Source: Longicatena caecimuris (GTDB taxonomy: Bacteria; Bacillota_I; Bacilli_A; Erysipelotrichales; Erysipelotrichaceae). Taken from it: a DNA stretch of 64,000 nucleotides. The DNA lies in the NCBI RefSeq assembly GCF_004341945.1, contig NZ_SMBP01000005.1:62001-126000 (forward strand), read 5' to 3'. Both the position numbers and the translations under genes were made by a program. Positions 4,404 through 21,599 of this stretch are shown in pieces (positions within the stretch are counted from its first letter, which is position 1; the number at the start of each line of letters is the position of its first letter). Below the pieces are notes generated by a model. The model did not search any database. It had not been told where the DNA came from and saw only the letters and a program-made list of their open reading frames with translations.

Positions 4404-5368
4404 ACTTCTAACAACCTTTCTTTTTCATGTATATCTTCGATTCCGGTCATATCCGCATAAGGAATATGTTTCGGATAATTGGGTATTGTATTTTTTTGAT
4501 GCTGCAAGATCTGCTCCGGTGAGAAATGTTCCTTATCATATAATAGAAAATCATTTATGATAAAATCAAATACACGTTGTACATCGGCATCATTACTGCT
4601 ATGTTTCATCATACCAGTGCCAGTCAATGAATATGGAGAACCTTCTTTCGGATAGACAATTTGAAATGGTGAACCTTCATTGATCTGATTTACTGCTTGA
4701 AAAGTCAGCCCTAAACCGATTCCAATTTCGCCCTGTATTAATAATTTAATAGGGCCACTGCCACTTTCACTAAATTGCTTCACATTATATTCCAGTTTAT
4801 CAATATATGCTAAGGCATTCGCTTCTCCCATGGTATTCACCAAATTCTTATAAAAGAAATAGCCGGTACCACTGGATTTCGGATCGGGCATGGCGATAAG
4901 ATTATAATATTTGCGATCTAACAGCTGTTCATATGTTGTCGGAATAGGAAGATGGTGTTTTTTTAAGACTTCGGTATTGATAATGAAAGCCCCTGCCTGA
5001 CGTTCCCAGATTACATAGCGATTATCAAATTTATCCGGTTGTAATTCACGCAGATAAGATAATTTGCTATAACCTTTGATATCCGCTAATTCCTCTTTGA
5101 TTTTTTCCATATAGCTGGATTCCAATCCTACGATGATATCTGCATCACTTTGATCCTTTTCCACATAGATTTTTGCTGCGGCTTTGGCGGTTGGCACATA
5201 CATCACCATGGCATGCAGATCAGGAAATTGTTCATTCAATTGTTTTTGTAATTCTTCCCCACGGAATTGTTCCATGGAAGAATAAATAATGATGGTTTCT
5301 CTTTCCTGACGAATGCTCAGCAACAGAATTGCCGTAATTAAAAACAATGCCACGATTGCCTTCCTCAT
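4391..5368 (-). CDS. Extracellular solute-binding protein of the ABC importer
   Basis: A 325-residue type-2 periplasmic-binding protein of the FbpA/PhnS-like group. An N-terminal hydrophobic segment (1-18) lacks a lipobox cysteine, so it is secreted or held by an uncleaved anchor. The first strand reads IIIYSSMEQF; MPDPKSSGTGYFF and SGSGPIKLLIQGEIGIGLGL are typical ligand-cleft segments. It is the first gene of the operon, with GGAGG before the ATG. FbpA-type iron ligands (paired tyrosines) are not evident, which weakens an Fe(III) reading. Phosphonate, phosphocholine or another small anion remain possible. Confidence 0.8.
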   Translation of the reverse strand: MRKAIVALFLITAILLLSIRQERETIIIYSSMEQFRGEELQKQLNEQFPDLHAMVMYVPTAKAAAKIYVEKDQSDADIIVGLESSYMEKIKEELADIKGYSKLSYLRELQPDKFDNRYVIWERQAGAFIINTEVLKKHHLPIPTTYEQLLDRKYYNLIAMPDPKSSGTGYFFYKNLVNTMGEANALAYIDKLEYNVKQFSESGSGPIKLLIQGEIGIGLGLTFQAVNQINEGSPFQIVYPKEGSPYSLTGTGMMKHSSNDADVQRVFDFIINDFLLYDKEHFSPEQILQHQKNTIPNYPKHIPYADMTGIEDIHEKERLLEVWKY

Positions 5369-5402
5369 CTTTCCACATCCTCCCTTTGTTCAAGTTATAT
5401 TC

Positions 5403-5430
5403 ATTTTAGCATATAAAATGAACAAATCAA
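5403..5430 (-). promoter_or_regulatory. Promoter of the ABC importer operon
   Basis: Minus strand: TTGATT (5425-5430), 16-bp spacer, TAAAAT (5403-5408), preceded by TGC (extended -10). It lies about 35 bp upstream of the binding-protein start. Confidence 0.6.
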
Positions 5431-5499
5431 CCTTTTAATTCTTAATTTAAGTTCATATTACTTCCGATGATTTTACATAAATTGAACAATCCATAATAA

Positions 5500-5513
5500 T
5501 GAAAACGCTTTTT
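5500..5513. promoter_or_regulatory. Candidate cre (CcpA) site
   Basis: TGAAAACGCTTTTT matches 12 of 14 positions of the CcpA operator consensus TGWAANCGNTNWCA. It lies between the divergent ABC operon and the LCP-like gene. Only suggestive. Confidence 0.3.
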
Positions 5514-5658
5514 TGATCTTCCTAGTGAACGATTGTAGCAATAGCAAGTTCATAGCGAATGCCTTCAGATTGAGATTTGTGATAAGAAAAATCCCTTATC
5601 CACTTTTGCATGAAGACCATCGTAGCATACATACTAACCTTAGAAGGAGGGTAATCCT

Positions 5659-6246
5659 ATGAAAAAAATTTATACAGTCTTTCTCATGGTGTTATTTTTA
5701 TTTATCTTAACACCTGTACATGCAAAAGATACGCAAAACATCCTCATCACCGGAAAGCATCTTCCTTATATCATGGTAGCCAGTATGCAGGAAGATGATT
5801 CTATGGATATGTACCTTATACCAACATCTTTGACCTTACCGCTTTCGCAAAACCCCCAGCAGTTGCGGCCATTAAATCAATACGATAAGCAAGAAGAGAT
5901 CAATCGCATACGTGAAGTGATTCAGCGATTCTTTGAGCTTCCCATCACCAATACCGTGTATTTACATATGGATACTATTCAAAAGGATATGGGAGTCGCT
6001 TATAATGAACAAACCTTTTCTGATGTAAAACATATGACCGCTTATTTCGCAAAGGTGGTCAAACAATTAAAACTCTCGATGATTTTTCATGCGTCTGATT
6101 ATCTAGAGGATGATTTAAATATCAGTGATTATTATGCATTCTATAAGATATTCCACGATGGTTATCCAAAAATACGCTATCATTATGTAAATTATCTGTA
6201 TATTGATTCTACCGTCTGCTATCCATTACATAATCAATTTTCATAA
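5659..6246 (+). CDS. Secreted protein with a degenerate LCP-like core
   Basis: A 195-residue protein with a clear signal peptide (MKKIYTVFLMVLFLFILTP, cleavage after VHA). The rest follows the order of a LytR-CpsA-Psr core: ILITG, MVASMQEDDSMDMYLIPTSL (where LCP enzymes have D...SIPRD), then FFELPITNTVYLHMD. The catalytic arginine/aspartate region of LCP transferases is not visible and the protein is shorter than the usual domain of about 250 residues or more. It may bind rather than transfer polyprenyl-linked glycans. A strong AGAAGGAGGG precedes the ATG. The family assignment is by pattern only. Confidence 0.5.
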   Translation: MKKIYTVFLMVLFLFILTPVHAKDTQNILITGKHLPYIMVASMQEDDSMDMYLIPTSLTLPLSQNPQQLRPLNQYDKQEEINRIREVIQRFFELPITNTVYLHMDTIQKDMGVAYNEQTFSDVKHMTAYFAKVVKQLKLSMIFHASDYLEDDLNISDYYAFYKIFHDGYPKIRYHYVNYLYIDSTVCYPLHNQFS

Positions 6247-6324
6247 GGTAATATATCACATACGAATGGTAAAGTAAGATTGGGTAAAAACAGAAGTTGC
6301 CTTTCTTTGCTAGCTTTTGCTAAC

Positions 6325-6369
6325 ATCCATAACTCCTCCATCATAAAAGGAGCTATGGATTTATTTTTG
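6325..6369 (+). terminator. Intrinsic terminator of the LCP-like gene
   Basis: Interrupted stem ATCCATA-CTCCT / AGGAG-TATGGAT between 6325 and 6360, followed by TTATTTTT. Confidence 0.65.
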
Positions 6370-6420
6370 CACATCTATTTATTTTCTCATGAAAAAAATT
6401 AAATTTTTTTAAATTTCTGC

Positions 6421-6448
6421 TTGCATTTTTTGTATTTTATTATATAAT
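6421..6448 (+). promoter_or_regulatory. Promoter of the tRNA-Cys/tRNA-Leu pair
   Basis: TTGCAT (6421-6426), 16-bp spacer, TATAAT (6443-6448), about 40 bp before the first tRNA. Confidence 0.7.
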
Positions 6449-6490
6449 GTTATAGCACCGATGATGTGGGGCAATCAAAAATAAATATAA

Positions 6491-6564
6491 GGTTCCGTAG
6501 CCAAGTGGTAAGGCAATAGACTGCAACTCTGTGATCATCGGTTCAAGTCCGATCGGAACCTCCA
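6491..6564 (+). tRNA. tRNA-Cys (GCA)
   Basis: A complete cloverleaf: acceptor GGTTCCG/CGGAACC, D arm GCC..GGC, anticodon loop CTGCAAC with anticodon GCA, T arm ATCGG/CCGAT with TTCAAGT loop, and an encoded CCA end. It is cotranscribed with the following tRNA. Confidence 0.95.
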
Positions 6565-6570
6565 TTACTT

Positions 6571-6658
6571 GGGGTAGTGGCGAAATAGGCAGACGCAACG
6601 GACTTAAAATCCGTTGGGAGTTAATCCCGTGCGGGTTCAAGTCCCGCCTTCCCCACCA
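6571..6658 (+). tRNA. tRNA-Leu (TAA)
   Basis: A class II tRNA with anticodon loop CTTAAAA (anticodon TAA), a long variable arm (TGGGAGTTAATCCCGT) and an encoded CCA end. The acceptor stem GGGGTAG/CTTCCCC has a single U5-U68 mismatch. It begins six bases after tRNA-Cys. Confidence 0.93.
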
Positions 6659-6669
6659 ACTTACGAACT

Positions 6670-6693
6670 AGCCTTTGCAAAAAGGCTTTTTTT
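6670..6693 (+). terminator. Intrinsic terminator of the tRNA operon
   Basis: Stem AGCCTTT / AAAAGGCT with a short loop, followed by seven T residues. Confidence 0.85.
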
Positions 6694-6706
6694 ATGTTTT
6701 ACCATT

Positions 6707-6740
6707 TCAAAAAAAGCATAAAGCCGTTTGCTCTATGCTT
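6707..6740 (-). terminator. Terminator of the GNAT gene
   Basis: On the minus strand, AAGCATA (6734-6740) pairs with TATGCTT (6714-6720) and is followed by a T run. Confidence 0.55.
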
Positions 6741-6789
6741 CTTATACCATGCAGGTAAATATCATTTTTCATATGCTTGCATGGTTTTT

Positions 6790-7212
6790 TTATGCTTTCC
6801 ACATCAAGTGATATACCTGAACATTTATTTCTGCATCGTTTTCTTTTGTTAAAATAGTAAAGTGTTCCCTTTGATAAAAACGCAATGCTTTTTCATTCTT
6901 TTCATATACATGCAGGTGTAAAATTGTTTTGTGTTTTTTTAATTCATCCATTAACTTCTTTCCAATGCCCCTATTTTGCATCGCTTCACTAACAAAGATA
7001 CCCGCAATATACGTATCCTGCAATCCGACAAACCCCACAACAGCACCATTCTCCTCATATACATATACCTCTGCTTCTTGTATGGCTTGAGAAACCATCG
7101 CATACTGCTTTTTCCAATAGGTAGGTGATAGAAAGGAATGCGCTGCTAGATTGCCATGTAGCCAAATATCCATAACAACGTCATGGTCCATAGCCTCCAT
7201 TTTTCTTATCAT
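6790..7212 (-). CDS. GNAT family N-acetyltransferase (YiaC-like)
   Basis: A 140-residue single GNAT domain. The acetyl-CoA loop is VSEAMQNRGIGKKLM (the Q/R-x-x-G-x-G/A motif), with VVGFVGLQDTYIAGIFV as the central strands and ALRFYQREHF as the C-terminal helix motif. The substrate cannot be told; relatives acetylate protein lysines or small amines. An in-frame upstream start at 7263 exists, but GGAGG eight bases before the ATG at 7212 defines the start. Confidence 0.85.
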   Translation of the reverse strand: MIRKMEAMDHDVVMDIWLHGNLAAHSFLSPTYWKKQYAMVSQAIQEAEVYVYEENGAVVGFVGLQDTYIAGIFVSEAMQNRGIGKKLMDELKKHKTILHLHVYEKNEKALRFYQREHFTILTKENDAEINVQVYHLMWKA

Positions 7213-7270
7213 ACTACTTCCTCCTGCAAGATAGGCATGCCATCGCTCGTTTTTTATGTGCAACTTTTGT

Positions 7271-7594
7271 TTAATCTATGATTTCTTTGATACTTTGTAT
7301 AGTATCAATACGCAGCATGCGCACGATTTTTTTTCGTTTTGTCATGGTTTCTATTAACAACCATTCATCATCTAAATCACATAAAACACCTTCTATGCTA
7401 TACATTGCATCCAGTGATACCAGCGGTTTTTTTAAGACGATCGAGCAATTCTTCTTTAAATATTGCGGCAATATGGCTTGATAATTTAATGACGGTTGAT
7501 CTTTTACAGTCTGTTTTTCCTTTTCCCCATGTGTCACTATTTTCATAAGATAGCACAATAACACAAGGATGATTAGCAATAAAAATATCGTCAT
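7271..7594 (-). CDS. Membrane-anchored partner of the XRE regulator
   Basis: A 107-residue protein with one N-terminal transmembrane helix (2-18) and a soluble domain (about 45-107) containing DDEWLLIETMTKRKKIVRMLRIDTIQSI. No named family is recognised. It overlaps the preceding XRE gene by 4 bp (ATGA), so the two are translated together. The soluble domain resembles the C-terminal part of that regulator in strand pattern and in W and D-x-I positions, suggesting they interact or arose by duplication. Confidence 0.6.
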   Translation of the reverse strand: MTIFLLLIILVLLCYLMKIVTHGEKEKQTVKDQPSLNYQAILPQYLKKNCSIVLKKPLVSLDAMYSIEGVLCDLDDEWLLIETMTKRKKIVRMLRIDTIQSIKEIID

Positions 7595-8052
7595 GCTGCT
7601 TCCTCCACGATCATAAAGCCATGGATAGCCCTTGTATCAATAAGTTTTATCAATGTTTCTTTTTTGAAAAAAGCATTGCTTCTTCCTCTTGTATAAGCCA
7701 CTCGTATCCATTCCTCAGTAACCTCCAGCACTTTTGCTTTCTCGTTATAGGAATTTAGCATGTAATCAAAATCCTCACAATCTAATATAACCGTTTTTCC
7801 CTGTAAAGCCTGTAACACATGCAAATCCTTCTTTGTTTTTTCTTTTGCGATAATCTCTAATCGATTATCCGCAAGATCATCTAAAGAAATATGATAGATA
7901 GCCGCCAACTCGATAGCTTTATCAAAAGTCGGTGCACTTTGCCCATTTTCCCAATTTGATATGGTTTGTCTTGTTAAAGACAGCAAATCGGCTAGCTCTT
8001 GTTGACTATAACCACTTTTTTTACGCAATGCAATTAACTTATCTTTTAACAT
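7591..8052 (-). CDS. XRE family transcriptional regulator
   Basis: A 153-residue protein. The Cro/C1-type HTH spans residues 1-60 (LIALRKKSGYSQQELADLLSLTRQTISNWENG), followed by a C-terminal domain (about 85-150) that resembles the soluble domain of the membrane protein encoded next. SD AAAGG stands before the ATG at 8052. The pair looks like a membrane-linked regulatory module; target genes are unknown. Confidence 0.8.
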   Translation of the reverse strand: MLKDKLIALRKKSGYSQQELADLLSLTRQTISNWENGQSAPTFDKAIELAAIYHISLDDLADNRLEIIAKEKTKKDLHVLQALQGKTVILDCEDFDYMLNSYNEKAKVLEVTEEWIRVAYTRGRSNAFFKKETLIKLIDTRAIHGFMIVEEAA

Positions 8053-8083
8053 GAATACCCCTTTCTACGTTTTGTGTGGTTTT

Positions 8084-8089
8084 ATTATA
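8084..8089 (-). promoter_or_regulatory. -10 element of the XRE operon
   Basis: TATAAT on the minus strand about 32 bp before the XRE start. A convincing -35 is not present at 17 bp (TAGTGT). Confidence 0.4.
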
Positions 8090-8159
8090 GCGATTGTGCT
8101 AAAAAAACACTAGCAAAAATCTTTGGCATTTCGGCAAATTTCTATAACATTTCCCTAAA

Positions 8160-9236
8160 CTACTGGCCCTTAAGCGTAATTTTAACAATTTCAGAGGTTG
8201 TTCCTATACGTATCGGCATGCCCCAAGTGCCAGCTCCACTGCTGACGATCATCGGATATGGCTGTTGATAAGCTCCATAATCATAAGGATATGCCAGCTT
8301 TGTGAAAAGGGTATTAGGAAAGATTTGTCCTTGATGCGTATGCCCGCTAACTTGTAAATCAATCGCATGGACATCATCAAAGCATGGTCGATGATCGATA
8401 ACGATGATTGGCTTGTCTGCTTGACAGGATTTCATTAAGGTGGCAAGCTCCATACGTTTTTCCTTTTTGTCCTTGCGTCCAATCACATAAAACCGATGAT
8501 CTACGAGGGCTGTTTCATCTTTTAGAATATGGATGCCACTTTGCTTCAAGAGGGTTTCATATGCTTTACGATTCTTACTCAGCAATTCATGATTGCCGGG
8601 ACTGTAATAAATTTTATCATGAAAGGAAGCATTACGACATTTCATACAAAATTGCTGTAAGTCAGAAGTTGGTGTTGCTTCATCAAAGAGATCTCCTGCC
8701 ACCAACAAAGCATCCATTGGCTGCTTTTCTAACATCGCAAACATTTGATCCATGCGGTGCTTGTCCACTCCACTTCCTAAATGCAAATCACTAAGTAAAT
8801 AAAACTGCAGATCTTTCGCTATGTTCATTTTCGCAGTTACGCTATAGCTACGCAAGACAAGCGGTGCTGCCTGCCGATAACCGATATACACAAACAAGGC
8901 AGTAAAAAGAATACATCCACCTAGAATATAGCGCAAAGATAACTTATACGCCCTTCTTTTATCTAACAAAAAGGCAATCCCCTGCATGAGGGCAAATAAT
9001 ATGAGCCATACCAGCACAATTGTTGATATAAGCAAAAGCAATGCGCGTAAAGACTCTTGCTGCAGACGATAAAATTGATTGCTGAAGCGATAAAATAAAA
9101 TACCATCACCAATCACTAACAACACCTGCAGGCATCGATAAAAAAAGCCTTGTACTTGTTGATGTATCCATCGCAATTGCAGATAACTCACAATGCACAC
9201 CAACACTCCCATCCCAGCTAAAAACACACCCATCAT
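8160..9236 (-). CDS. Membrane-bound metallophosphoesterase (YkuE-like)
   Basis: A 358-residue protein with about four N-terminal transmembrane helices (residues 1-130) and a calcineurin-like phosphoesterase domain. All five metal motifs are visible: SDLHLG, GDLFD, GNHE, a histidine in VIDHRP and SGHTHQGQ. Relatives act on lipid-linked substrates such as UDP-diacylglucosamine or on cyclic nucleotides; the substrate here is unknown. Upstream in-frame starts at 9308 and 9272 lack an SD, while AGAAGGA lies seven bases before the ATG at 9236. It diverges from the MarR-NrdG operon. Confidence 0.85.
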   Translation of the reverse strand: MMGVFLAGMGVLVCIVSYLQLRWIHQQVQGFFYRCLQVLLVIGDGILFYRFSNQFYRLQQESLRALLLLISTIVLVWLILFALMQGIAFLLDKRRAYKLSLRYILGGCILFTALFVYIGYRQAAPLVLRSYSVTAKMNIAKDLQFYLLSDLHLGSGVDKHRMDQMFAMLEKQPMDALLVAGDLFDEATPTSDLQQFCMKCRNASFHDKIYYSPGNHELLSKNRKAYETLLKQSGIHILKDETALVDHRFYVIGRKDKKEKRMELATLMKSCQADKPIIVIDHRPCFDDVHAIDLQVSGHTHQGQIFPNTLFTKLAYPYDYGAYQQPYPMIVSSGAGTWGMPIRIGTTSEIVKITLKGQ

Positions 9237-10628: not shown

Positions 10629-13001
10629 ATGTACAAAGTAATTAAAAGAGATGGAAAGGTTACCGATTTCGATATCGCCAAGATTACCATAGCCATCACC
10701 CAGGCATTTGAATCTGTCCAGCGCCAATATCATCCAAGTGTTATTGATATGTTGGCATTGCGTGTCACCAGTGATTTTGAGCCAAAAATCAAAGAGGAAT
10801 GCATTCATGTCGAAGACATTCAAGACAGTGTAGAGGATGTATTGATTCAGGCAGATTATGCCGATGTCGCAAAATCTTATATCCTGTATCGTAAACAGCG
10901 TGAAAAGATCCGCAATATGCGTTCGACGATCTTAGATTATAAGGACTTAGTTGACAGCTATGTAAAAGCAACCGATTGGCGTGTCAAAGAAAATTCGACG
11001 GTCACCTATTCCGTAGGCGGTTTGATCTTAAATAACAGTGGTGCCATTACCGCTAACTATTGGCTTTCTGAAATCTACGATGATGAAATTGCCAATGCTC
11101 ACAAGAATGGCGATCTGCACATCCATGATTTAAGCATGTTAACTGGTTATTGCGCAGGTTGGTCATTAAAACAATTGATTCAGGAAGGTCTTGGCGGTGT
11201 GGTTGGCAAGATTACCTCAAAACCGGCTTCTCATTTAGCAACGCTTTGTAACCAGATGGTAAACTTCTTAGGCATCATGCAAAATGAATGGGCAGGTGCA
11301 CAAGCCTTTTCTTCCTTTGATACGTATTTAGCACCATTTGTAAAAGTTGATAACCTTGACTATGATCAGGTAAAGAAGTGTGTGGAATCCTTCATTTATG
11401 GTGTTAATACCCCTAGCCGTTGGGGCACACAGGCACCTTTCTCTAATGTCACCTTAGACTGGACCGTTCCAAATGATCTGGCTGAAATGAACTGTATCAT
11501 AGGCGGCAAAGAAGTAGACTTTAAATATAAGGATTGTAAAAAAGAGATGGACATGATCAATAAAGCCTTTATTGAAGTCATGTTGGAAGGCGATGCCAAC
11601 GGACGTGGTTTCCAATATCCAATCCCAACCTATTCCATCACTTCTGATTTTGATTGGTCAGATACCGAAAATAATCGTTTATTATTTGAAATGACAGCGA
11701 AGTATGGTACTCCTTATTTCTCTAATTATGTAAATAGTGATATGGAACCAAGCGATGTGCGCAGCATGTGCTGCCGTCTGCGCCTGGATCTGCGTGAATT
11801 ACGAAGAAAATCTGGTGGATTCTTCGGTAGTGGAGAAAGCACAGGTTCTGTTGGTGTTGTAACGATCAACCTGCCTAGAATCGCCTATTTAGCTAAGAGT
11901 AAAGAAGAATTCTATAATCGCTTAGATCATTTAATGGATATCAGCGCACGTTCTTTGAAAACAAAACGTACGGTTATAACCAAATTATTAGATGAAGGTC
12001 TGTATCCTTATACAAAACGTTATTTAGGTACTTTTGAGAACCATTTCTCAACCATTGGTTTGATTGGTATGAATGAGGTCGGCTTAAATGCCAACTGGCT
12101 GCGAAAAGATCTGACTCATAAGGAAACACAAGAATTCGCAAAAGAAGTTTTAAATCATATGCGTGAACGTCTGGTGATCTATCAGGAAGAATATGGTGAT
12201 CTATACAACCTGGAAGCAACACCAGCTGAATCTACGACCTATCGTCTTGCAAAACATGATAAAGCACATTATCCAGATATCATTACCGCAACAGAAGAAG
12301 GCAATAGCCCTTACTATACCAATAGTTCACACTTGCCAGTAGGCTTTACGGAAGATATCTTTGATGCTTTGGATGTACAGGATGAATTGCAAACATTATA
12401 TACATCAGGAACGGTATTCCATGCCTTCTTAGGTGAGAAACTTCCAGATTGGAAAGCAGCTGCATCTTTGGTACGCACCATTGCCGCAAACTACAAACTG
12501 CCATATTATACTTTATCCCCTACGTATTCCATCTGTCCAAACCATGGCTACATCACCGGTGAACAATACACTTGTCCTCACTGTGGTGCTAAGACCGAAG
12601 TATGGAGTCGTATCACAGGATACTATCGACCAATCCAAAACTGGAATGAAGGTAAATCCCAGGAATATAAAGAACGTAAGGAATATGATATCGGCCACAG
12701 CGTCTTAAAAGGAAGAGATGTGTTCGCCCCTCAAAAAGATGAGGAAGCGAAAAAACCAGAGGTACAACCTAAAAAAGTCATGCTCTTTACCACAAAGACA
12801 TGTCCAAATTGCAAGATTGCTACCACATGGTTAGAGCAAGCAGGCATTCCTTATGAAAAAATTGATGCTGAAGAAAATCAGAAGCTGACAAAACAATATA
12901 AGGTCATGTTAGCTCCAACCTTGATTGTTGCCGATGAGCAGGACTATCAGGCATATGCCAATGCCAGTAATATTCGTAAGTTTATAGATGCTCATAAATA
13001 A
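10629..13001 (+). CDS. nrdD: Anaerobic ribonucleoside-triphosphate reductase with C-terminal glutaredoxin domain
   Basis: 790 residues. An ATP-cone occupies 1-95 (MYKVIKRDGKVTDFDI), the class III catalytic barrel 100-640 (SMCCRLRLDLRELRRKSGG and GSVGVVTINLPR), a zinc site CPNHG...CPHCG, and the glycyl-radical motif RITGYYRP near residue 662. After a charged linker, residues 710-790 form an added thioredoxin-fold domain with CPNC at about 722-726 (VMLFTTKTCPNCKIATTWL), like NrdH/glutaredoxin. Formate-type NrdDs lack this part; the fusion argues for internal dithiol reduction. It makes dNTPs without oxygen. AGGAAAGGAAG precedes the start. Confidence 0.93.
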   Translation: MYKVIKRDGKVTDFDIAKITIAITQAFESVQRQYHPSVIDMLALRVTSDFEPKIKEECIHVEDIQDSVEDVLIQADYADVAKSYILYRKQREKIRNMRSTILDYKDLVDSYVKATDWRVKENSTVTYSVGGLILNNSGAITANYWLSEIYDDEIANAHKNGDLHIHDLSMLTGYCAGWSLKQLIQEGLGGVVGKITSKPASHLATLCNQMVNFLGIMQNEWAGAQAFSSFDTYLAPFVKVDNLDYDQVKKCVESFIYGVNTPSRWGTQAPFSNVTLDWTVPNDLAEMNCIIGGKEVDFKYKDCKKEMDMINKAFIEVMLEGDANGRGFQYPIPTYSITSDFDWSDTENNRLLFEMTAKYGTPYFSNYVNSDMEPSDVRSMCCRLRLDLRELRRKSGGFFGSGESTGSVGVVTINLPRIAYLAKSKEEFYNRLDHLMDISARSLKTKRTVITKLLDEGLYPYTKRYLGTFENHFSTIGLIGMNEVGLNANWLRKDLTHKETQEFAKEVLNHMRERLVIYQEEYGDLYNLEATPAESTTYRLAKHDKAHYPDIITATEEGNSPYYTNSSHLPVGFTEDIFDALDVQDELQTLYTSGTVFHAFLGEKLPDWKAAASLVRTIAANYKLPYYTLSPTYSICPNHGYITGEQYTCPHCGAKTEVWSRITGYYRPIQNWNEGKSQEYKERKEYDIGHSVLKGRDVFAPQKDEEAKKPEVQPKKVMLFTTKTCPNCKIATTWLEQAGIPYEKIDAEENQKLTKQYKVMLAPTLIVADEQDYQAYANASNIRKFIDAHK

Positions 13002-13322: not shown

Positions 13323-14165
13323 TCACATATCATGCTTATTATCCATTTTTTCTTTAACCAATCTAGCATGATAAAAGTAGTTGATGTATTTTAGGTTTAA
13401 CTCATCGCAATAAACATTTATAGAGCTTGCTAAATTATCCCAATAAGCATTATCTTTCTGCAAAAATATTTTTCGATACTCATTTGCCAGATTGCTATAA
13501 TATTTATCAATATAAGTAAGTATAGTTTGTTTATAAGAACCTCTAAGGTTTAGATTTTCAAACCAATATTCATTTACAATATAGCTTGTTTCTTCTATGA
13601 TTTTCTTCCAATCAGTAATATATGGAAAAATAGGAGATATAAACAAAACAGTATATATTCCTGCTTCATGTAGTCTTTTTATGGTATATAATCTATTAGC
13701 AATCGCACTAGCATTATCCATATCTTTTCGGAATGTTTCATTTAACGTATTCAGAGAAAACGCCACTTTAAGATTTGGGATTTTTTTTAGAATCTCAATG
13801 TCACGTAATATTAAATCTGATTTAGTGGAAATGGTTATTTGACAATCGATATTTATTAACTGTTCTAATATTTTTTGAGTTTTGCAATACCTTGCTTCAT
13901 ATTGATTATAACAATCTGTTACAGACGCTATGAATACCGATTTACCTTGAAGCCTTTTTTTACTTATAGGTTTATCACATTCCTTTATATCTATAAAAGT
14001 TCCCCATTCCTCTGAATGGCCTGTAAATCTTTTCATAAAACTAGCGTAACAATATTTACAGGCATGAGGGCAACCAACATATGGATTTATGACATAATCA
14101 CTATCTGGAAGATTTGATTTTGTCAAATAATCTTTTGTATTGATTTGCTTTTCGATAATTTTCAT
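13323..14165 (-). CDS. Radical SAM protein, SplB-like (COG1533)
   Basis: A 280-residue radical SAM enzyme. The [4Fe-4S] cluster motif is CPHACKYCYA (Cx3Cx2C) within NPYVGCPHACKYCY, typical of spore-photoproduct-lyase-like proteins of unknown substrate; IASVTDCYNQYEARY and ITISTKSDLILRD are the next conserved blocks. The start at 14165 overlaps the stop of the upstream regulator (TGATG), so both are coupled. The gene is AT-rich against its flanks, consistent with an acquired island. Confidence 0.75.
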   Translation of the reverse strand: MKIIEKQINTKDYLTKSNLPDSDYVINPYVGCPHACKYCYASFMKRFTGHSEEWGTFIDIKECDKPISKKRLQGKSVFIASVTDCYNQYEARYCKTQKILEQLINIDCQITISTKSDLILRDIEILKKIPNLKVAFSLNTLNETFRKDMDNASAIANRLYTIKRLHEAGIYTVLFISPIFPYITDWKKIIEETSYIVNEYWFENLNLRGSYKQTILTYIDKYYSNLANEYRKIFLQKDNAYWDNLASSINVYCDELNLKYINYFYHARLVKEKMDNKHDM

Positions 14166-14839
14166 CAGCTTATAACGCCTCCATGAAAATAGCATTCATA
14201 AATTTTCTCTTTCAAATAAAAGATTTCTTCATATCCTTGAAACCAAACAAATTCGCCTTCAACTTTGCAATGATAATGATAATCGCCCTTTACAAAAATT
14301 TTAGGACCCCGATAAGGTGCGTCAGCAGAAACACTTAATAAGGCTTCTTTTAAAAAGTCATTATCAAAAAAATCTCCTGTTATTCGTCCAGCATAGTTCA
14401 TGCTCCAAATAGGCTTATCAAGATACCAAACAGCCTCAGAACCAGAAAATTTCTCTCCCCCTAAATATGTATCTAGGTACTTATATCCGTTTTCACTATA
14501 ACTATAATCATGAGATTTTGTTCTTGATGAAGCAACTTTATTTCCATTTATTGGATAAGTGTTTTTTTTGGCATAGATTAAAAAAGAAATCATTTCATTT
14601 ATGTCTATTTCTGCACCTTTATAAATGGGTAGATTACATTCATCATCATCTTTAACAATTCTATCAATCGCTATACCGTATAATTTACTTAATGCTATCA
14701 ATCCATTTAGTTCTGGAATTGCCTGTCCATTTTCCCATTTGCTTATAGTTTGACGAGCTATACCAAGTTTATCGGCTAATTGTTCTTGCGAATATCCATT
14801 CTTTTTTCTCAATATTTGTAACTTTTCTTCTAATTTCAT
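14165..14839 (-). CDS. XRE regulator with C-terminal DUF5680 domain
   Basis: A 224-residue protein. HTH 1-58 (LRKKNGYSQEQLADKLGIARQTISKWENGQ in part) is followed by a DUF5680 domain (about 80-224) with YLDTYLGGEKFSGSEAVW and WSMNYAGRI, a pattern seen in many Firmicute XRE proteins that probably bind a small ligand. An in-frame GTG at 14848 is rejected because AGAGGTGG sits five bases before the ATG at 14839. It is translationally coupled to the radical SAM gene and likely represses its own promoter. Confidence 0.75.
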   Translation of the reverse strand: MKLEEKLQILRKKNGYSQEQLADKLGIARQTISKWENGQAIPELNGLIALSKLYGIAIDRIVKDDDECNLPIYKGAEIDINEMISFLIYAKKNTYPINGNKVASSRTKSHDYSYSENGYKYLDTYLGGEKFSGSEAVWYLDKPIWSMNYAGRITGDFFDNDFLKEALLSVSADAPYRGPKIFVKGDYHYHCKVEGEFVWFQGYEEIFYLKEKIYECYFHGGVIS

Positions 14840-14845
14840 AGATAC

Positions 14846-14888
14846 CACCTCTAGTTATTATTATAAAGGTTTATAGAGGTGTAATCTA
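14846..14888 (-). promoter_or_regulatory. Promoter with inverted-repeat operator for the XRE/radical SAM operon
   Basis: Minus strand: TAGATT (14883-14888), 17-bp spacer, TATAAT (14860-14865). Eight-base inverted repeats CACCTCTA (14846-14853) and TAGAGGTG (14874-14881) bracket the -10 box, one arm covering the SD. This suits autorepression by the XRE protein. Confidence 0.6.
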
Positions 14889-16212: not shown

Positions 16213-16260
16213 TTCTGAATAATTTTCAAGACTTTGATTAAGATGTATACCAAGTGTTCA

Positions 16261-16295
16261 CCAAAAAAGAACCAATCGGTTCTTTTTTGGTTTTT
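16261..16295. terminator. Strong bidirectional terminator
   Basis: Perfect 13-bp stem CCAAAAAAGAACC / GGTTCTTTTTTGG with a 4-nt loop, between the converging RibD_C and Crp genes. Confidence 0.9.
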
Positions 16296-16323: not shown

Positions 16324-16980
16324 CTATAGCAAATCCTCTAATGCTCTTTGATTTAATAAAACCAGATTATGTCCATCAATGCGAAAATATCCTAAAGCTT
16401 CCATACGCTTGATTTCCTGGTTTAGAGAAGAACGTGAAACACGCAAGGTATTTGCCCACATCGTTTGTGACTTTGGCAAAGGAATATGTTCATTTTGCGA
16501 AAGATTATTCATGCCAATCAACCAATATGCGACACGCTCTTGAATCGTCTGATAATTTAAACAGTTTAACAACATCTGATTCTTTAATCCACGTTTTGAG
16601 ATATAGAGCATAAAGGAATACATCATTTCGGAATCTTCCTGTAACATACGCTCAAAAACAGAAGTCGCTATCCATGCAACTTCTGTTTTCTTAACTGCTG
16701 CCAATGTATACGTATATACTTTTTTGCCAGTGAAGTAGAGAAATTCGGGAAACACATCACAATCTTCAAAGTAAGCACTGCACAATTCACAGCCATTTAC
16801 GGTATACAGATTTGCCTTTAAGATGCCATCCACCACGATTCCGAATTCATCAATCGGTGCTCCTGTTGGATGGATGATTTCTGCTGTTTTATAGCTTTGA
16901 TAACGAAAGGCTTTCCCATATACGGGATGATGTAAACAGCGATATGCGAAAGGTGTCTGTTGCGATATACGGTTTTCCAA
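16324..16980 (-). CDS. Crp/Fnr family transcriptional regulator
   Basis: A 218-residue regulator: cyclic-nucleotide-like beta barrel (about 25-115), dimer helix, and a C-terminal HTH (KSQTMWANTLRVSRSSLNQEIKRMEALGYF). The start is TTG at 16980, nine bases behind AGGAGG; no ATG fits. Cysteines cluster in NGCELCSAYFEDC; they could form a redox or cluster site, but not the Fnr spacing. It is the last gene of the antiporter / flavoprotein / arylsulfotransferase operon (28 bp gap), and probably binds the palindrome upstream of that operon. Confidence 0.85.
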   Translation of the reverse strand: MENRISQQTPFAYRCLHHPVYGKAFRYQSYKTAEIIHPTGAPIDEFGIVVDGILKANLYTVNGCELCSAYFEDCDVFPEFLYFTGKKVYTYTLAAVKKTEVAWIATSVFERMLQEDSEMMYSFMLYISKRGLKNQMLLNCLNYQTIQERVAYWLIGMNNLSQNEHIPLPKSQTMWANTLRVSRSSLNQEIKRMEALGYFRIDGHNLVLLNQRALEDLL

Positions 16981-17008
16981 GGAAGTCTACCTCCTGCCTC
17001 ATGTAGTT

Positions 17009-18820
17009 TTATGCAAATGCCTGATCTAAGAAATCACAGACATCATCGTAATCCCGTTCTCCATTAAAGCGTTGTACTTCTTTTCCATGACGATAGATTG
17101 CCACAACAGGAATCCCCTGTACATGACATGCATCCACAATGTCCTTATTTTCATCCACATTGACATAGCGGATATGGAAACTGCTGTTAAATTCATCCTG
17201 CAAAGCTTCCTCTAATACCGGATGCAACGCTTTACAATGAACACAGCGTTCAGCACCAAACAAGACAAGCACTGGTTTATCATTTACCTTTAATACTTTT
17301 TCATTCCAATCCGCAAAGCTGTTTACCGGTTCAAATAAATCCGTATCTACGCTAAATACTTTCTCACGCTTGCTCATGTCTTCTTCATCATCGGTCGCAA
17401 CACAAAGAGCTACATCCTGATAATAAGGTAAAGTTCCCTCTACATCAATAATCTTCTTAGCACCAAAGGCACCGGCATTTGGTACACGATAGGTAATATT
17501 ATCAATTTTAGGAATTGCAACTTCCTGTGGTGTTGGTTCTTGCGGTACATAACTGTATGGATAACGATATGCACGATAGATCATATTATTCTTTGGTCCG
17601 GTTTCATTATGGGTATAATAAGGTGAAATCCATTCCCAAACAATTTCATGTTCTGCCGTTACTTCTATTATACGACCATCGCTGCCTTCTGTCACTAGGG
17701 TATTTCCATTTGGCAAACGCTGGGCACTGGATACATAAGGGCTGTAAAATTTACTAGCATCGGTAGGAATTGCATGACCGAGTTCTTTTGGGGTCAGCTT
17801 CCAAACAACTTCCAATGTAATTGGATTGAATTCTAATACACGGCTATAATCGCGCAGCGCATTTTTAGTTCCGTTTTTAGAGCCTGGATTAGGAACGCCA
17901 TAACCTCCCCAACCACCATTATCAAACACTAACAGGTTGCCTTCACCAGGAAGACCTTTAGGAATCATGTGGAAGTGATGCTGTCCAATGATCCAACCTA
18001 ATTTCTTCAATTCCGGTGTTGCGTTAAAATCAGGACCGATACGCCAAACAATCTTACCGCTTTCCTTATCTAAGATTGCTAAAATATTGGCTTCACGACA
18101 ATCAAAGATAATATTATCCGGTTTGAAACGGTTATCCCCTTGATCATACCATTTGTTAGGTCCAAGATAGCTCATGCAATTCACATGCAGATAATCACCG
18201 ACACCGCCATCAGATGAACGCATATTCGGATCTCTTGAAAGGATATTTAAGGCTGCTTCATCAAAGCCTAATTCATCAAAGTGATCGGTAATAGACCATT
18301 TCCATAAGATATTGCCTTCCCAATCGACTTCGATCATACAATCATCTAACAGCTTTTTATCTGAAATCTTAGGATTATGCACTGTTTGATGTACGAGAAT
18401 CAACGTATTTCCTTCTAATGGTTTGGCATCCATGCCTGGCACATAATAGCCGACAGGATTTCCTTCACGCTGGTAATCGTGATGCTGGCGTGCCATCCAG
18501 CGATGATCTCTTCCCGGGTCATTGATTTCTTCAAATTTATCAAATTCCCATACAATATTTCCATCATAATCAATCTCAATCAGGTTAACACCATCCTGCA
18601 TACCATAGTCTGGATGACGGTAACCGGAAAGGCCCATCACATAACCTCCTGGCAATAATTTTGGTGGCATGGCATGCATATTCCAACGACGGATTTCATT
18701 TCCATTCATATCAAACAACAAGACACCATCATTAATCAACGGTACGATCGTATACCCACTCCAACATTTTTTTGGATCATAAACAGTAACTCCATGAGGG
18801 AAAACACTTGGCTGTCCCAT
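17009..18820 (-). CDS. Arylsulfotransferase-type beta-propeller fused to thioredoxin
   Basis: A 603-residue cytoplasmic protein (no signal peptide). Residues 1-430 are a six-bladed arylsulfotransferase (AssT-like) propeller with blades such as GNIVWEFDKF and GNILWKWSI, and conserved histidines in RQHHDY, LVHQTVHNP and GQHHFHMIP. Family enzymes move sulfate from one phenol to another through a histidine, without PAPS. Residues about 495-603 are a thioredoxin domain with CVHC (LVLFGAERCVHCKALHPVL). Fusion to a redox protein and loss of export are unusual for AssT. It sits between a thioredoxin-reductase-like gene and a Crp gene. Activity is inferred; a binding-only propeller is possible. Confidence 0.8.
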   Translation of the reverse strand: MGQPSVFPHGVTVYDPKKCWSGYTIVPLINDGVLLFDMNGNEIRRWNMHAMPPKLLPGGYVMGLSGYRHPDYGMQDGVNLIEIDYDGNIVWEFDKFEEINDPGRDHRWMARQHHDYQREGNPVGYYVPGMDAKPLEGNTLILVHQTVHNPKISDKKLLDDCMIEVDWEGNILWKWSITDHFDELGFDEAALNILSRDPNMRSSDGGVGDYLHVNCMSYLGPNKWYDQGDNRFKPDNIIFDCREANILAILDKESGKIVWRIGPDFNATPELKKLGWIIGQHHFHMIPKGLPGEGNLLVFDNGGWGGYGVPNPGSKNGTKNALRDYSRVLEFNPITLEVVWKLTPKELGHAIPTDASKFYSPYVSSAQRLPNGNTLVTEGSDGRIIEVTAEHEIVWEWISPYYTHNETGPKNNMIYRAYRYPYSYVPQEPTPQEVAIPKIDNITYRVPNAGAFGAKKIIDVEGTLPYYQDVALCVATDDEEDMSKREKVFSVDTDLFEPVNSFADWNEKVLKVNDKPVLVLFGAERCVHCKALHPVLEEALQDEFNSSFHIRYVNVDENKDIVDACHVQGIPVVAIYRHGKEVQRFNGERDYDDVCDFLDQAFA

Positions 18821-18889
18821 AACTCATTCCTCCATTCTTTCTTTTATTCATCAGCATTCTTTGCTGTATGAGCCATTTTTCTATTTTCT

Positions 18890-20065
18890 TTATAAAGATT
18901 CTTCGATGCGTTCTACTTGGCCGTTTTCATAATAAGCGGCTGCTGGTACATTGTGCATTTGCAAGCGTTCATACAATAAACTTTGGCGTGTGATATCCTG
19001 ACGTATGACATGATATGTTTCACCAAGCTTTTCTTCCATCTTCGTAAGAACATCAATTTGTGCACTATCATATGGATTGTAGAACAGAAAGGCTACTTTG
19101 CCACTGTCCGGTGTTAGGATAGCATCAATCTGTTTCTTTTCTTTCACATAGCGCTCACTGGCCGTTGCCGCAATCGCACCATCGGCGGCAGAAGTTACAA
19201 CCTGTCGTAAGAAAGTTTGAGTACAATCACCAATTGCATAAATGCCAGCCACATTGGTTTCTTTCTTTTCATTTACCTTGATATACCCTTTCTTATCACA
19301 GGCAACCAAGTCCTTTACAAATTCGGTTTGCGGTACCATGCCGACAAAGAAGAAGATACCATCGGCTTTTACTTCCATGCTTTCATTGGTGACAACATTC
19401 TTGATGACTAGGCTTTCGACTTCCTCTTTCCCCTTAATTTCCTGTAAGGTAGAATTCCAAACGAAGTGAATCTTTGGATTATGGAAGGCCGTTTCTGCTG
19501 CGACTTCATTACAATCAAGATGACCTTCTTCATGTAAGACGATGATGGTGACCTTACTTGCAAAGTTTGTCAGATAATCGGCTTCTTCAATTGCCTGATC
19601 TCCGGCACCCAACACATAAATTTCTTTGCCTTTGAAGAATTCCGCATCACAGGTTGCACAATAGGCAACACCATGTCCAGCAAATTCAACTTCACCAGGA
19701 ATACCTAAGATTCTTGGTTTTGTACCGGTATCTAATAACACGCACTGTGCTAAGAAATCTCCACGGCGTTTGGTATGGATCACAAAGCTTCCATCCGTTG
19801 CTTTTTCAATGCCGGTAACCGTTGTACGCTTGAATTCATTTGTTGCATAGCTGCGTGCATGTTCCTTGAATTTTTCCATCAATCCAGCACCGCTATCAGA
19901 AATTGTGCCCGGATAGTTACGAATCTCTCTAGTGTCATTGATTCTTCCACCATAGCTGCCTTTTTCAATCAGCAGTGTCTTGCGCTGTGCGCGGCCTGCA
20001 TAGATAGCAGCTGCTAATCCGGCAGGGCCGCCACCTATAATAACAACATCATACATTTCACTCAT
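18890..20065 (-). CDS. Thioredoxin-reductase-like flavoprotein with redox-dead thioredoxin-like tail
   Basis: 391 residues. The first 310 match low-molecular-weight thioredoxin reductase: FAD motif GGGPAGLAAAIYAGRA, redox-active CATC in GVAYCATCDAEFF, NAD(P)H motif VLGAGDQAIEEADYL, and the FAD-closing AIGDC. The last 80 residues have a thioredoxin-like order (VAFLFYNPYDSAQIDVL ... QMHNVPAAAYYENGQ), but NPYDSA stands where CxxC would be. The natural partner is the CVHC domain of the next gene. Start at 20065 overlaps the antiporter stop (ATGA). Confidence 0.88.
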   Translation of the reverse strand: MSEMYDVVIIGGGPAGLAAAIYAGRAQRKTLLIEKGSYGGRINDTREIRNYPGTISDSGAGLMEKFKEHARSYATNEFKRTTVTGIEKATDGSFVIHTKRRGDFLAQCVLLDTGTKPRILGIPGEVEFAGHGVAYCATCDAEFFKGKEIYVLGAGDQAIEEADYLTNFASKVTIIVLHEEGHLDCNEVAAETAFHNPKIHFVWNSTLQEIKGKEEVESLVIKNVVTNESMEVKADGIFFFVGMVPQTEFVKDLVACDKKGYIKVNEKKETNVAGIYAIGDCTQTFLRQVVTSAADGAIAATASERYVKEKKQIDAILTPDSGKVAFLFYNPYDSAQIDVLTKMEEKLGETYHVIRQDITRQSLLYERLQMHNVPAAAYYENGQVERIEESL

Positions 20066-21525
20066 CTTTCACCACTCCTTTGCATATGCAAGCTATGTTT
20101 CACTTTTTCTCTATGTCGGCCCAGACCAAATACGACCCAGGCGATACAGACAAGTGTTAACAACAAACAGTAATATGACGATATAAAGATTTGCCACGGT
20201 GTAACATTCGGCAGCATTGGATTTTTCGCTGTCATTTCCGCAACGACTGTTACAGCACCCATGACAAAGGCCGAATTGATTGGGACAATGGCAGTCACAT
20301 TGGTTGCCATCGCAGTTAACAGAATACTTCTTCGACTGGCAGGAATCTCAGCCTTTTGTCCAACGGTATCTGCCACATCTTTAAACATGATGATCGAAGG
20401 TAAGACACAGCCCGCCAGTAAGACATTTACCACACCTACACCGATGGCGATGATGCCTTCTGCCCCTGCCGGCTTTTGGATCATCTTACGACTTAGCAAA
20501 AAGTCACAGCATTTCTGCATCATGCCGCCTTCAACTGCGACCTGAATCAAACCATATAACAAAATGGTAGATAGGATGATATCCGTTACGCTAGTAATAC
20601 CATCGAAGAATACCCCATGCAGCTGTTGGGTCGTTGTATCAATGAAGAAGATATCCGACATTTGGAAAATGCCGGTTACTAAGCCAATGACGATACCGGT
20701 AAGAATACCTCCACTCACTCCCATGAACAAATCACTTGTCTTAAAGCAAATAAGCAATAAGACAACGATAGGCAGCAGCATCCATAAGCCTGAACGATTA
20801 GAAAGCTTGCTTAATTCTGCCACATGCTCTACCGCACTTGTATCACTGCCTAAAAAATAAAAGAGAATCATGGAAACAATACCGGCGAAAAGGATATACG
20901 GCAAACGTTCTTTCATCGTTTCGATTAAATCCGCGCTCTTTTGGGTATGGGCATCGTGTTGCGAAGCAATGGTCGTATGGATAACCTGCGAACTTGGTGA
21001 TAAAGCATCGCCAAAGAAGATGCCACTCATCATTGCCCCCAATAACACAGCAGGATTAGCCCCTAGCATGATACCGGCCGGATAAAAAATCGGTACCACC
21101 GCTAATAACGCCGCAATCGGTGCACCTGCGCCCATTGAAATAATACTGCAGCCAAGGAAACAAAAGACCACAAAGGCACCACCATGCAAATCTAAATGCA
21201 AACTGGCCCAGATAAAGCCACCGCCGATGCCTCCTGTCACTAACACCTTAGAAAAGATACCAATCACCATAAAAATCAGAATGAGCCGAGCATTTCCATA
21301 CTGTGCTAATCCTCGTACGATGGCATTCCAGTATTCCTTTTTCTTACGGCAAAACAAATAACCAATAAAGATGGAAACGATGGCCGCAAAGATCAGCACT
21401 TTCATAGAATAATACTGAAATCCTATCATGATAGCTCCTCCTAAAACCACATAAAGGAGAATAGGAATCATCGCCAATTCTTGACGACCGTAGAAGGTTA
21501 GGGATTTTGTCTGTTCGACATTCAT
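20062..21525 (-). CDS. nhaC: NhaC-type Na+/H+ antiporter family transporter
   Basis: A 487-residue protein with about twelve membrane helices. NhaC features include GGIGGGFIWASL, SMGAGAPIAALLAVVPIFYPAG, FFGDALSPSSQVIHTTIASQ and AIVPINSAFVMG. Family members exchange Na+ for H+ or carry malate/lactate. As first gene of an operon with an arylsulfotransferase and redox proteins, it may import an organic anion such as an aryl sulfate; this is inference. The SD before the ATG at 21525 is weak. Confidence 0.85.
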   Translation of the reverse strand: MNVEQTKSLTFYGRQELAMIPILLYVVLGGAIMIGFQYYSMKVLIFAAIVSIFIGYLFCRKKKEYWNAIVRGLAQYGNARLILIFMVIGIFSKVLVTGGIGGGFIWASLHLDLHGGAFVVFCFLGCSIISMGAGAPIAALLAVVPIFYPAGIMLGANPAVLLGAMMSGIFFGDALSPSSQVIHTTIASQHDAHTQKSADLIETMKERLPYILFAGIVSMILFYFLGSDTSAVEHVAELSKLSNRSGLWMLLPIVVLLLICFKTSDLFMGVSGGILTGIVIGLVTGIFQMSDIFFIDTTTQQLHGVFFDGITSVTDIILSTILLYGLIQVAVEGGMMQKCCDFLLSRKMIQKPAGAEGIIAIGVGVVNVLLAGCVLPSIIMFKDVADTVGQKAEIPASRRSILLTAMATNVTAIVPINSAFVMGAVTVVAEMTAKNPMLPNVTPWQIFISSYYCLLLTLVCIAWVVFGLGRHREKVKHSLHMQRSGER

Positions 21526-21555: not shown

Positions 21556-21599
21556 ATGATAACACTCTTATTTTTATAAAACATGTTGGATATCCAACA
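21556..21599 (-). promoter_or_regulatory. Promoter plus Crp/Fnr-like palindrome of the antiporter-arylsulfotransferase operon
   Basis: A perfect 16-bp palindrome TGTTGGATATCCAACA (21584-21599) lies upstream of a minus-strand TATCAT (21556-21561) with only a weak -35 (TGTTTT). The palindrome centre is about 42 bp from the expected start, the classic class II activator position of Crp/Fnr proteins. Confidence 0.6.

Follow-up and report, generated by a model that had tools for sequence, protein, structure and literature searches.

The residues H252, H356, R374 and H436 have an established catalytic role in the arylsulfotransferase AssT of Escherichia coli, and in assimilatory adenosine 5′-phosphosulfate (APS) and 3′-phosphoadenosine 5′-phosphosulfate (PAPS) reductases a cysteine near the mobile C-terminus bears a thiosulfonate that is later resolved by thioredoxin. 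Known AssT enzymes transfer the sulfuryl group to phenols or alcohols, and a 2026 review describes the natural acceptors and physiological role of the bacterial aryl sulfotransferases as unknown (PMC13426309). Plant APS reductase combines a reductase domain and a C-terminal thioredoxin-like domain in one polypeptide and follows a two-step mechanism with a thiosulfonate intermediate (PMC6827007). Here we describe a four-gene operon in a stretch of 64,000 nucleotides from the gut anaerobe Longicatena caecimuris (hereafter the window; contig NZ_SMBP01000005.1, positions 62,001 to 126,000 of the forward strand) that encodes an AssT-like propeller fused to thioredoxin, a thioredoxin reductase (TrxR)-like flavoprotein, an NhaC-like carrier and a Crp/Fnr-family regulator. 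The operon probably specifies a cytoplasmic thioredoxin-dependent sulfate-ester reductase that releases sulfite, together with a supply of electrons, a carrier and an activator of its own.

AssT of E. coli CFT073 (3ELQ) and Cpz4 (9KF6) have the propeller fold and the catalytic H/H/R/H set in common with the window fusion, which differs from both in the absence of a signal peptide and of a match to the N-terminal Ig-like domain, and in the presence of a tail cysteine, a fused thioredoxin and a dedicated TrxR. AssT is likewise encoded with thiol-disulfide proteins in AssT-DsbL-DsbI and AstA-DsbA operons; there the Dsb proteins oxidise periplasmic AssT, whereas the window has a reducing cytoplasmic system fused to AssT. 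The likeness to APS/PAPS reductases lies in the proposed mechanism only, that is, a cysteine thiosulfonate resolved by a fused or separate thioredoxin, sulfite as product and the same operon slot in relatives. The window enzyme differs from them in its unrelated fold, in a proposed substrate that is an organic sulfate instead of a sulfonucleotide and in a sulfohistidine step that would come first. The literature searched, in which subscription papers are incompletely covered, held neither an AssT-thioredoxin fusion nor reductive desulfation, and no described system with this gene set, in agreement with the initial annotation of this DNA.

Fusion of an AssT-like propeller to thioredoxin

The four genes and the parts of the fusion are as follows (window positions).

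16324-16980, minus strand: Crp/Fnr-family regulator, TTG start (open reading frame list and profile matches)
17009-18820, minus strand: AssT-like propeller and thioredoxin fusion, 603 residues (open reading frame, Pfam, AlphaFold model, fold alignment)
18890-20065, minus strand: TrxR-like flavoprotein, 391 residues (open reading frame, profiles)
20062-21525, minus strand: NhaC-like carrier, 487 residues (open reading frame, TIGR00931 far below cut-off, orthologues)
17531-18820, minus strand: AssT propeller, residues 1-430 (fold alignment)
17978-18481, minus strand: active-site residues H114, H212, R242 and H281 (alignment mapping)
17402-17404, minus strand: C473 (ALCVAT), lone conserved cysteine in the flexible tail (alignments, model)
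17012-17338, minus strand: thioredoxin domain, residues 495-603, CVHC at 526-529 (Pfam, alignment, fold match)

The initial annotation had described four packed minus-strand genes with one overlap and short gaps, and the open reading frames lie exactly where it placed them; the NhaC-like and TrxR-like genes overlap by 4 bp and the remaining gaps are 69 and 28 bp. Its description of an AssT-like propeller without signal peptide and with a CVHC thioredoxin was confirmed by inspection of the N-terminus (MGQPSVFPHGVTVYDPKKCW), in which a signal peptide is absent, by Pfam and by fold alignment. The fusion matched Arylsulfotrans (PF05935; 1.9e-23, 83.5 bits against a cut-off of 24.2) and the Pfam Thioredoxin family (1.4e-18, C526-V-H-C529). 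No Pfam match was obtained for the fusion with the N-terminal Ig-like domain PF17425, which the classical AssT of locus L027 does match, or with the APS/PAPS reductase domain PF01507. The AlphaFold model had a mean predicted local distance difference test (pLDDT) score of 90.2. In this model the propeller aligns with Cpz4 (9kf6; VIA-align Z 33.6, 328 residues, 2.9 Å) and with E. coli AssT (3elq; Z 24.3, 329 residues, 3.5 Å), and the last 110 residues with E. coli thioredoxin (2trx; Z 18.3).

Mapping via a classical AssT and 3ELQ equated H252, H356, R374 and H436 of E. coli AssT with H114, H212, R242 and H281 of the window protein. The four residues are intact in all 15 of the non-Peptoniphilus main-clade fusions and in the propeller-only relatives from anaerobes; the AssT histidines, which the initial annotation had left to an alignment, are thus conserved in window-type fusions. 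CxHC is present in 28 of 28 aligned fusions other than that of the window.

Propeller and thioredoxin are joined by an acidic tail that is predicted to be flexible (pLDDT below 50 at residues 472-483) and that holds C473. Practically all anaerobe relatives that have the histidines intact carry the tail cysteine, in the pattern xC[VIAT]x, whether they are fused or not; in the propeller-only proteins of Clostridia, Desulfosporosinus, Mailhella and Paenibacillus it stands near the end (FCVTT, FCVAT, ECVTE, DFCVVS and others). It is missing in the tail-less proteobacterial, acidobacterial and Dehalococcoidales homologues and in the histidine-less Peptoniphilus proteins. The alignment revealed no conserved cysteine pair in the propeller, and C241, adjacent to the catalytic arginine, is not conserved across the fusions. 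A role of thioredoxin as redox switch or in repair of the propeller was rejected as the main idea on these grounds.

The TrxR-like protein matched Pyr_redox_2 of Pfam and scored 334.4 bits against TIGR01292 (curated cut-off 343.45). Three of its segments are as follows.

19649-19660, minus strand: CATC redox motif (C136, C139), both cysteines invariant in 26 sequences
19505-19537, minus strand: LHEEGHLDCNE at the place of the NADPH-binding HRRxxxR motif (alignment)
18893-19117, minus strand: C-terminal thioredoxin-like tail without CxxC (alignment; predicted beta-alpha-beta-alpha-beta-beta)

A different TrxR from this genome (L090) keeps HRR, as does the E. ramulus-type TrxR. Since the window enzyme lacks HRRxxxR, use of NADPH as its reductant, as the initial annotation had supposed, is doubtful. 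The genome encodes two further full TrxRs, and the operon enzyme therefore looks dedicated. An ordinary TrxR with HRRxxxR serves the E. ramulus and L135/L136 systems, in contrast to the window type with its CxxC-less tail, so that one and the same partner has recruited two types of reductase. In L027:8001-15719 a tail-cysteine AssT, a DASS carrier and Crp are followed by a classical AssT (PF17425 and PF05935), thioredoxin and a window-type TrxR with the tail.

Sulfur-metabolism genes around relatives and in the genome

Two Lachnospiraceae operons place AssT directly among genes of sulfur assimilation.

L135:970-11545: L135 operon (TusA and ThiS read in L135 only)
L136:813-11152: L136 operon

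The order is ABC ATPase, permease, SsuA-family substrate-binding protein, thioredoxin, AssT, TrxR, MetY (O-acetylhomoserine sulfhydrylase), siroheme-type sulfite reductase, TusA, thioredoxin, ThiS, ThiF and JAB, with families assigned by profile for most L135 members and by similarity in L136. Each is predicted to be a complete organosulfate-to-homocysteine operon. Locus L111 has the order ABC, AssT, MetY, sulfite reductase, thioredoxin, ThiF and JAB. A cluster type published by Iyer and colleagues (row 4e) holds sulfate ABC transporters, ATP sulfurylase and PAPS reductase (PMC1779556). These ThiS/JAB/E1/SirA clusters have MetY, sulfite reductase, ThiF and JAB in common with L135, L136 and L111, and TusA/SirA and ThiS also with L135, whereas in L135 and L136 the sulfate transporter, ATP sulfurylase and PAPS reductase are replaced by an SsuABC-type transporter, thioredoxin, AssT and TrxR. 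Thioredoxin, AssT and TrxR hence occupy the slot normally held by ATP sulfurylase and PAPS reductase.

Other relatives are adjoined by SsuA-type or DASS carriers. In L109:1386-12479, AssT is flanked by NifH/NifD/NifK-like genes on one side and by a radical SAM gene on the other, together with SsuA-type substrate-binding proteins; the locus may be an island for scavenging both sulfonates and sulfate esters and recalls the nitrogenase-like sulfonate pathway of PMC11423573. The E. pallens operon holds a YeiH-family gene (TIGR00698 just below cut-off, PF03601 above), and YeiH drives sulfite resistance in Salmonella (PMC12880088). These independent contexts support sulfite as the product.

The genome of the window (G000) encodes a complete AsrABC sulfite reductase, above curated cut-offs. 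No match to APS/PAPS reductase (PF01507, TIGR02055) was obtained in this genome or in that of L111 (G578), and none to TIGR02055 in G951 and G1232. Since AsrABC is present without a PF01507 or TIGR02055 match, the window's genome appears to require sulfite that does not derive from sulfate. Within its family, AsrB occurs in 2 of 2 genomes with the operon, which are closely related, against a background of 1 of 34 genomes of the family without it and 9 of 24 in the sister family; the association of AsrB with the operon is suggestive only.

Conservation, spread and regulation of the operon

In every main-clade locus examined, Peptoniphilus included, the TrxR gene immediately precedes the fusion, consistent with the CATC reductase that the initial annotation had noted just before the fusion. 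The NhaC-like gene, crp or both accompany the fusion in the group of Lachnospiraceae, Enterococcus, Lactobacillaceae and Mobiluncus, and both are present in most non-Peptoniphilus loci. The order in lactobacilli is NhaC-Crp-TrxR-fusion; crp is missing in Mobiluncus and NhaC in some Lachnospiraceae. Pairwise divergences of the operon genes correlate strongly (r 0.81-0.97). Since TrxR always precedes the main-clade fusion, NhaC, Crp or both accompany it and the divergences correlate, the four-gene set is not due to chance. The homologues keep their neighbours and are not scattered without them, and the initial proposal, in which a thioredoxin system, a carrier and a regulator go with an AssT-like enzyme of the cytoplasm, agrees with both the gene set and this conserved neighbourhood.

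Besides Lachnospiraceae and other anaerobes, Enterococcus, lactobacilli and Mobiluncus also have the operon, and a Cetobacterium plasmid bears a relative (TrxR, fusion, SLC13 carrier and a true NhaC). A full-length match was found in 1 of 59 sampled relatives, the genome of the window aside, and in none of the other genomes of a 392-genome sample of the phylum. Since the spread is patchy and yet proteins of Lachnospiraceae, Emergencia, Enterocloster and Enterococcus share 87-95% identity with the propeller, the comparison points to horizontal transfer. Outside the main clade, thioredoxin is fused to AssT in L139 (G871) and Cetobacterium, and a thioredoxin gene directly adjoins AssT in L039, L041, L042, L044, L072, L135, L136, L137, L140 and L141; strongly supported tree branches force at least four changes in this adjacent state. 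Thioredoxin is fused to AssT or next to it in at least four parts of the tree. For Cetobacterium a single origin of the fusion was not rejected (approximately unbiased test, p 0.595), and the three positions on the tree at which a fusion occurs are therefore not taken as separate origins. In L112 (G813), at 5338-8338, the TrxR-fusion pair is present with its AssT-thioredoxin frame broken into several pieces, and the gene is decaying in that genome.

The initial annotation had named the carrier as NhaC-type. The gene is present; the protein scored 38.9 bits against TIGR00931 (Na+/H+ antiporter NhaC; cut-off 370) and is a distant relative only, with no Pfam match and no structural relative in the PDB by sequence search. 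Among relatives it is in some cases replaced by SsuABC-type or DASS transporters, or absent. The regulator matched cNMP_binding (PF00027) and HTH_Crp_2 (PF13545), both above cut-off.

The following elements flank the genes.

21584-21599, strand-neutral: perfect palindrome TGTTGG-ATAT-CCAACA, probable Crp/Fnr-type operator (sequence)
21556-21561, minus strand: -10 hexamer TATCAT (sequence)
16260-16291, strand-neutral: terminator-like hairpin 3′ of crp (hairpin search of the region)

The operon unit extends beyond 16324-21525, with the palindrome and -10 hexamer upstream and the hairpin downstream; terminator-like sites in the region number 8 against a mean of 3.8 in shuffles. The stretch 5′ of the operon that bears the palindrome is TGTTGGATATCCAACA. 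TGTTGGN4CCAACA has a single perfect copy in the 2.95 Mb genome, and its centre lies 30 nt upstream of TATCAT, at about -41.5, the position of a class II activator. The palindrome is perfect in L087, L014, L019, L020 and L022 and degenerate in L015, L016, L017, L024 and L062, and can thus be recognised, in perfect or degenerate form, in 11 of 14 orthologous operons, window included. Its spacing of 29-30 to the -10 is retained in the operons with a clear -10 (L087, L015, L016, L017, L024). The operon's own Crp is a candidate for binding to this site. Sites with one or two mismatches are only somewhat commoner than those of a reversed control pattern (120 versus 83 per strand), and no regulon was therefore deduced. 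The region upstream of asrA holds no good copy of the palindrome; co-regulation of AsrABC through it was rejected for this reason and because the genome has no second perfect site.

Across the hairpin, a RibD C-terminal-type reductase gene (PF01872; 15451-16212, plus strand) converges with crp. Further along, an HTH_3-DUF5680 regulator (14165-14848, minus strand) overlaps a radical SAM gene (13323-14195, minus strand), and 10629-13001 (plus strand) encodes the anaerobic ribonucleotide reductase NrdD, which ends in a glutaredoxin/thioredoxin-like domain (CPNC).

Proposed reaction and competing explanations

In the proposed reaction an organic sulfate would enter through the NhaC-like carrier; both this import and the nature of the substrate, an aryl or alkyl sulfate, are guesses from family knowledge. 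The propeller would take the sulfuryl group onto H281, as AssT does, and pass it to a thiol instead of a second phenol, most likely C473 on the tail or else Cys526 of thioredoxin directly. The fused thioredoxin would then resolve the Cys-S-SO3 intermediate to yield sulfite and oxidised thioredoxin, and the dedicated TrxR would re-reduce the latter. Sulfite would feed AsrABC in the window's genome and, in relatives, sulfite reductase and O-acetylhomoserine sulfhydrylase, or an exporter. The initial annotation had spoken of thiol redox control. The redox link stands; redox is probably the reaction itself and not its control, since the propeller lacks a conserved cysteine pair and the sulfite-reductase operons contain the same trio of thioredoxin, AssT and TrxR.

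The competing possibility of an ordinary PAPS-independent aryl sulfotransferase acting between phenols, kept reduced or switched by the thioredoxin system, is improbable. The fold and catalytic residues are those of AssT, and periplasmic AssT, too, has a co-encoded thiol-redox system, DsbL/DsbI or DsbA (PMC13426309); however, a switch is at odds with the lack of a propeller cysteine pair, the cytoplasmic housekeeping thioredoxin system, with two further TrxRs in the genome, would suffice for maintenance, and the sulfite-reductase operons and tail cysteine would be left unexplained. It is still less probable that the propeller releases sulfate as a hydrolytic sulfatase would, with thioredoxin in an unrelated protective role. 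Although a sulfohistidine intermediate could be hydrolysed and the transporter contexts are compatible with sulfur scavenging, sulfate would be of no use in G000 and G578, in which APS/PAPS reductase was not detected, and in L111, L135 and L136 AssT is followed closely by sulfite reductase.

Several observations weigh against a sulfite-releasing reductase. A nearby thioredoxin gene is lacking in over half of the unfused relatives with the tail cysteine, and the sulfite-reductase operons belong to propeller-only relatives of one sub-clade with about 57-60% identity to the window. AsrB is found in 8 of the 15 genomes with an intact fusion and missing in 7, where the fate of sulfite is unexplained; it was therefore rejected as a strict companion. 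The Peptoniphilus fusions have replaced H114, H281 and mostly H212 and lost the tail cysteine while retaining R242, CxHC and the TrxR neighbour, which indicates that thioredoxin coupling can persist without sulfuryl chemistry. The latter proteins favour a thioredoxin-coupled propeller with a non-sulfate substrate, or a redox sensor, in which sulfuryl chemistry is a relic. For the window this is an improbable explanation, since its group keeps every catalytic residue with the high propeller identity across classes given above, and the sulfur-assimilation contexts of relatives are specific. The Peptoniphilus form (L054-L066 except L062, plus L028 and L032; for example L060:8004-9788) is conserved across the genus and probably repurposed.

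The simplest account treats AssT of the anaerobe type, with its tail cysteine, as a thiol-dependent enzyme that produces sulfite, and the window operon as its most integrated form. The chances are about even for the wider proposal of a new enzyme class, sulfate-ester reductase, in which anaerobes would use AssT-fold proteins and thioredoxin for the reduction of organic sulfates to sulfite, without ATP sulfurylase or sulfonucleotides. Such enzymes would have evolved in parallel to APS/PAPS reductase, mobile tail cysteine and fused thioredoxin included, and the sulfite would serve for assimilation or as electron acceptor in gut bacteria. The gain may differ by host: genomes with AsrABC could respire sulfite and MetY operons could assimilate it, and lactobacilli or Mobiluncus without AsrB would have to use it otherwise.

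If the proposal holds, AssT of the anaerobe branch may use a protein thiol as acceptor and form sulfite as product, a testable answer to the question of its role. Bacteria that are not classed as sulfate reducers could then obtain sulfite and hydrogen sulfide directly, and without ATP, from host and dietary sulfate conjugates in the gut, which would constitute a sulfur source or electron sink for anaerobes not described before.

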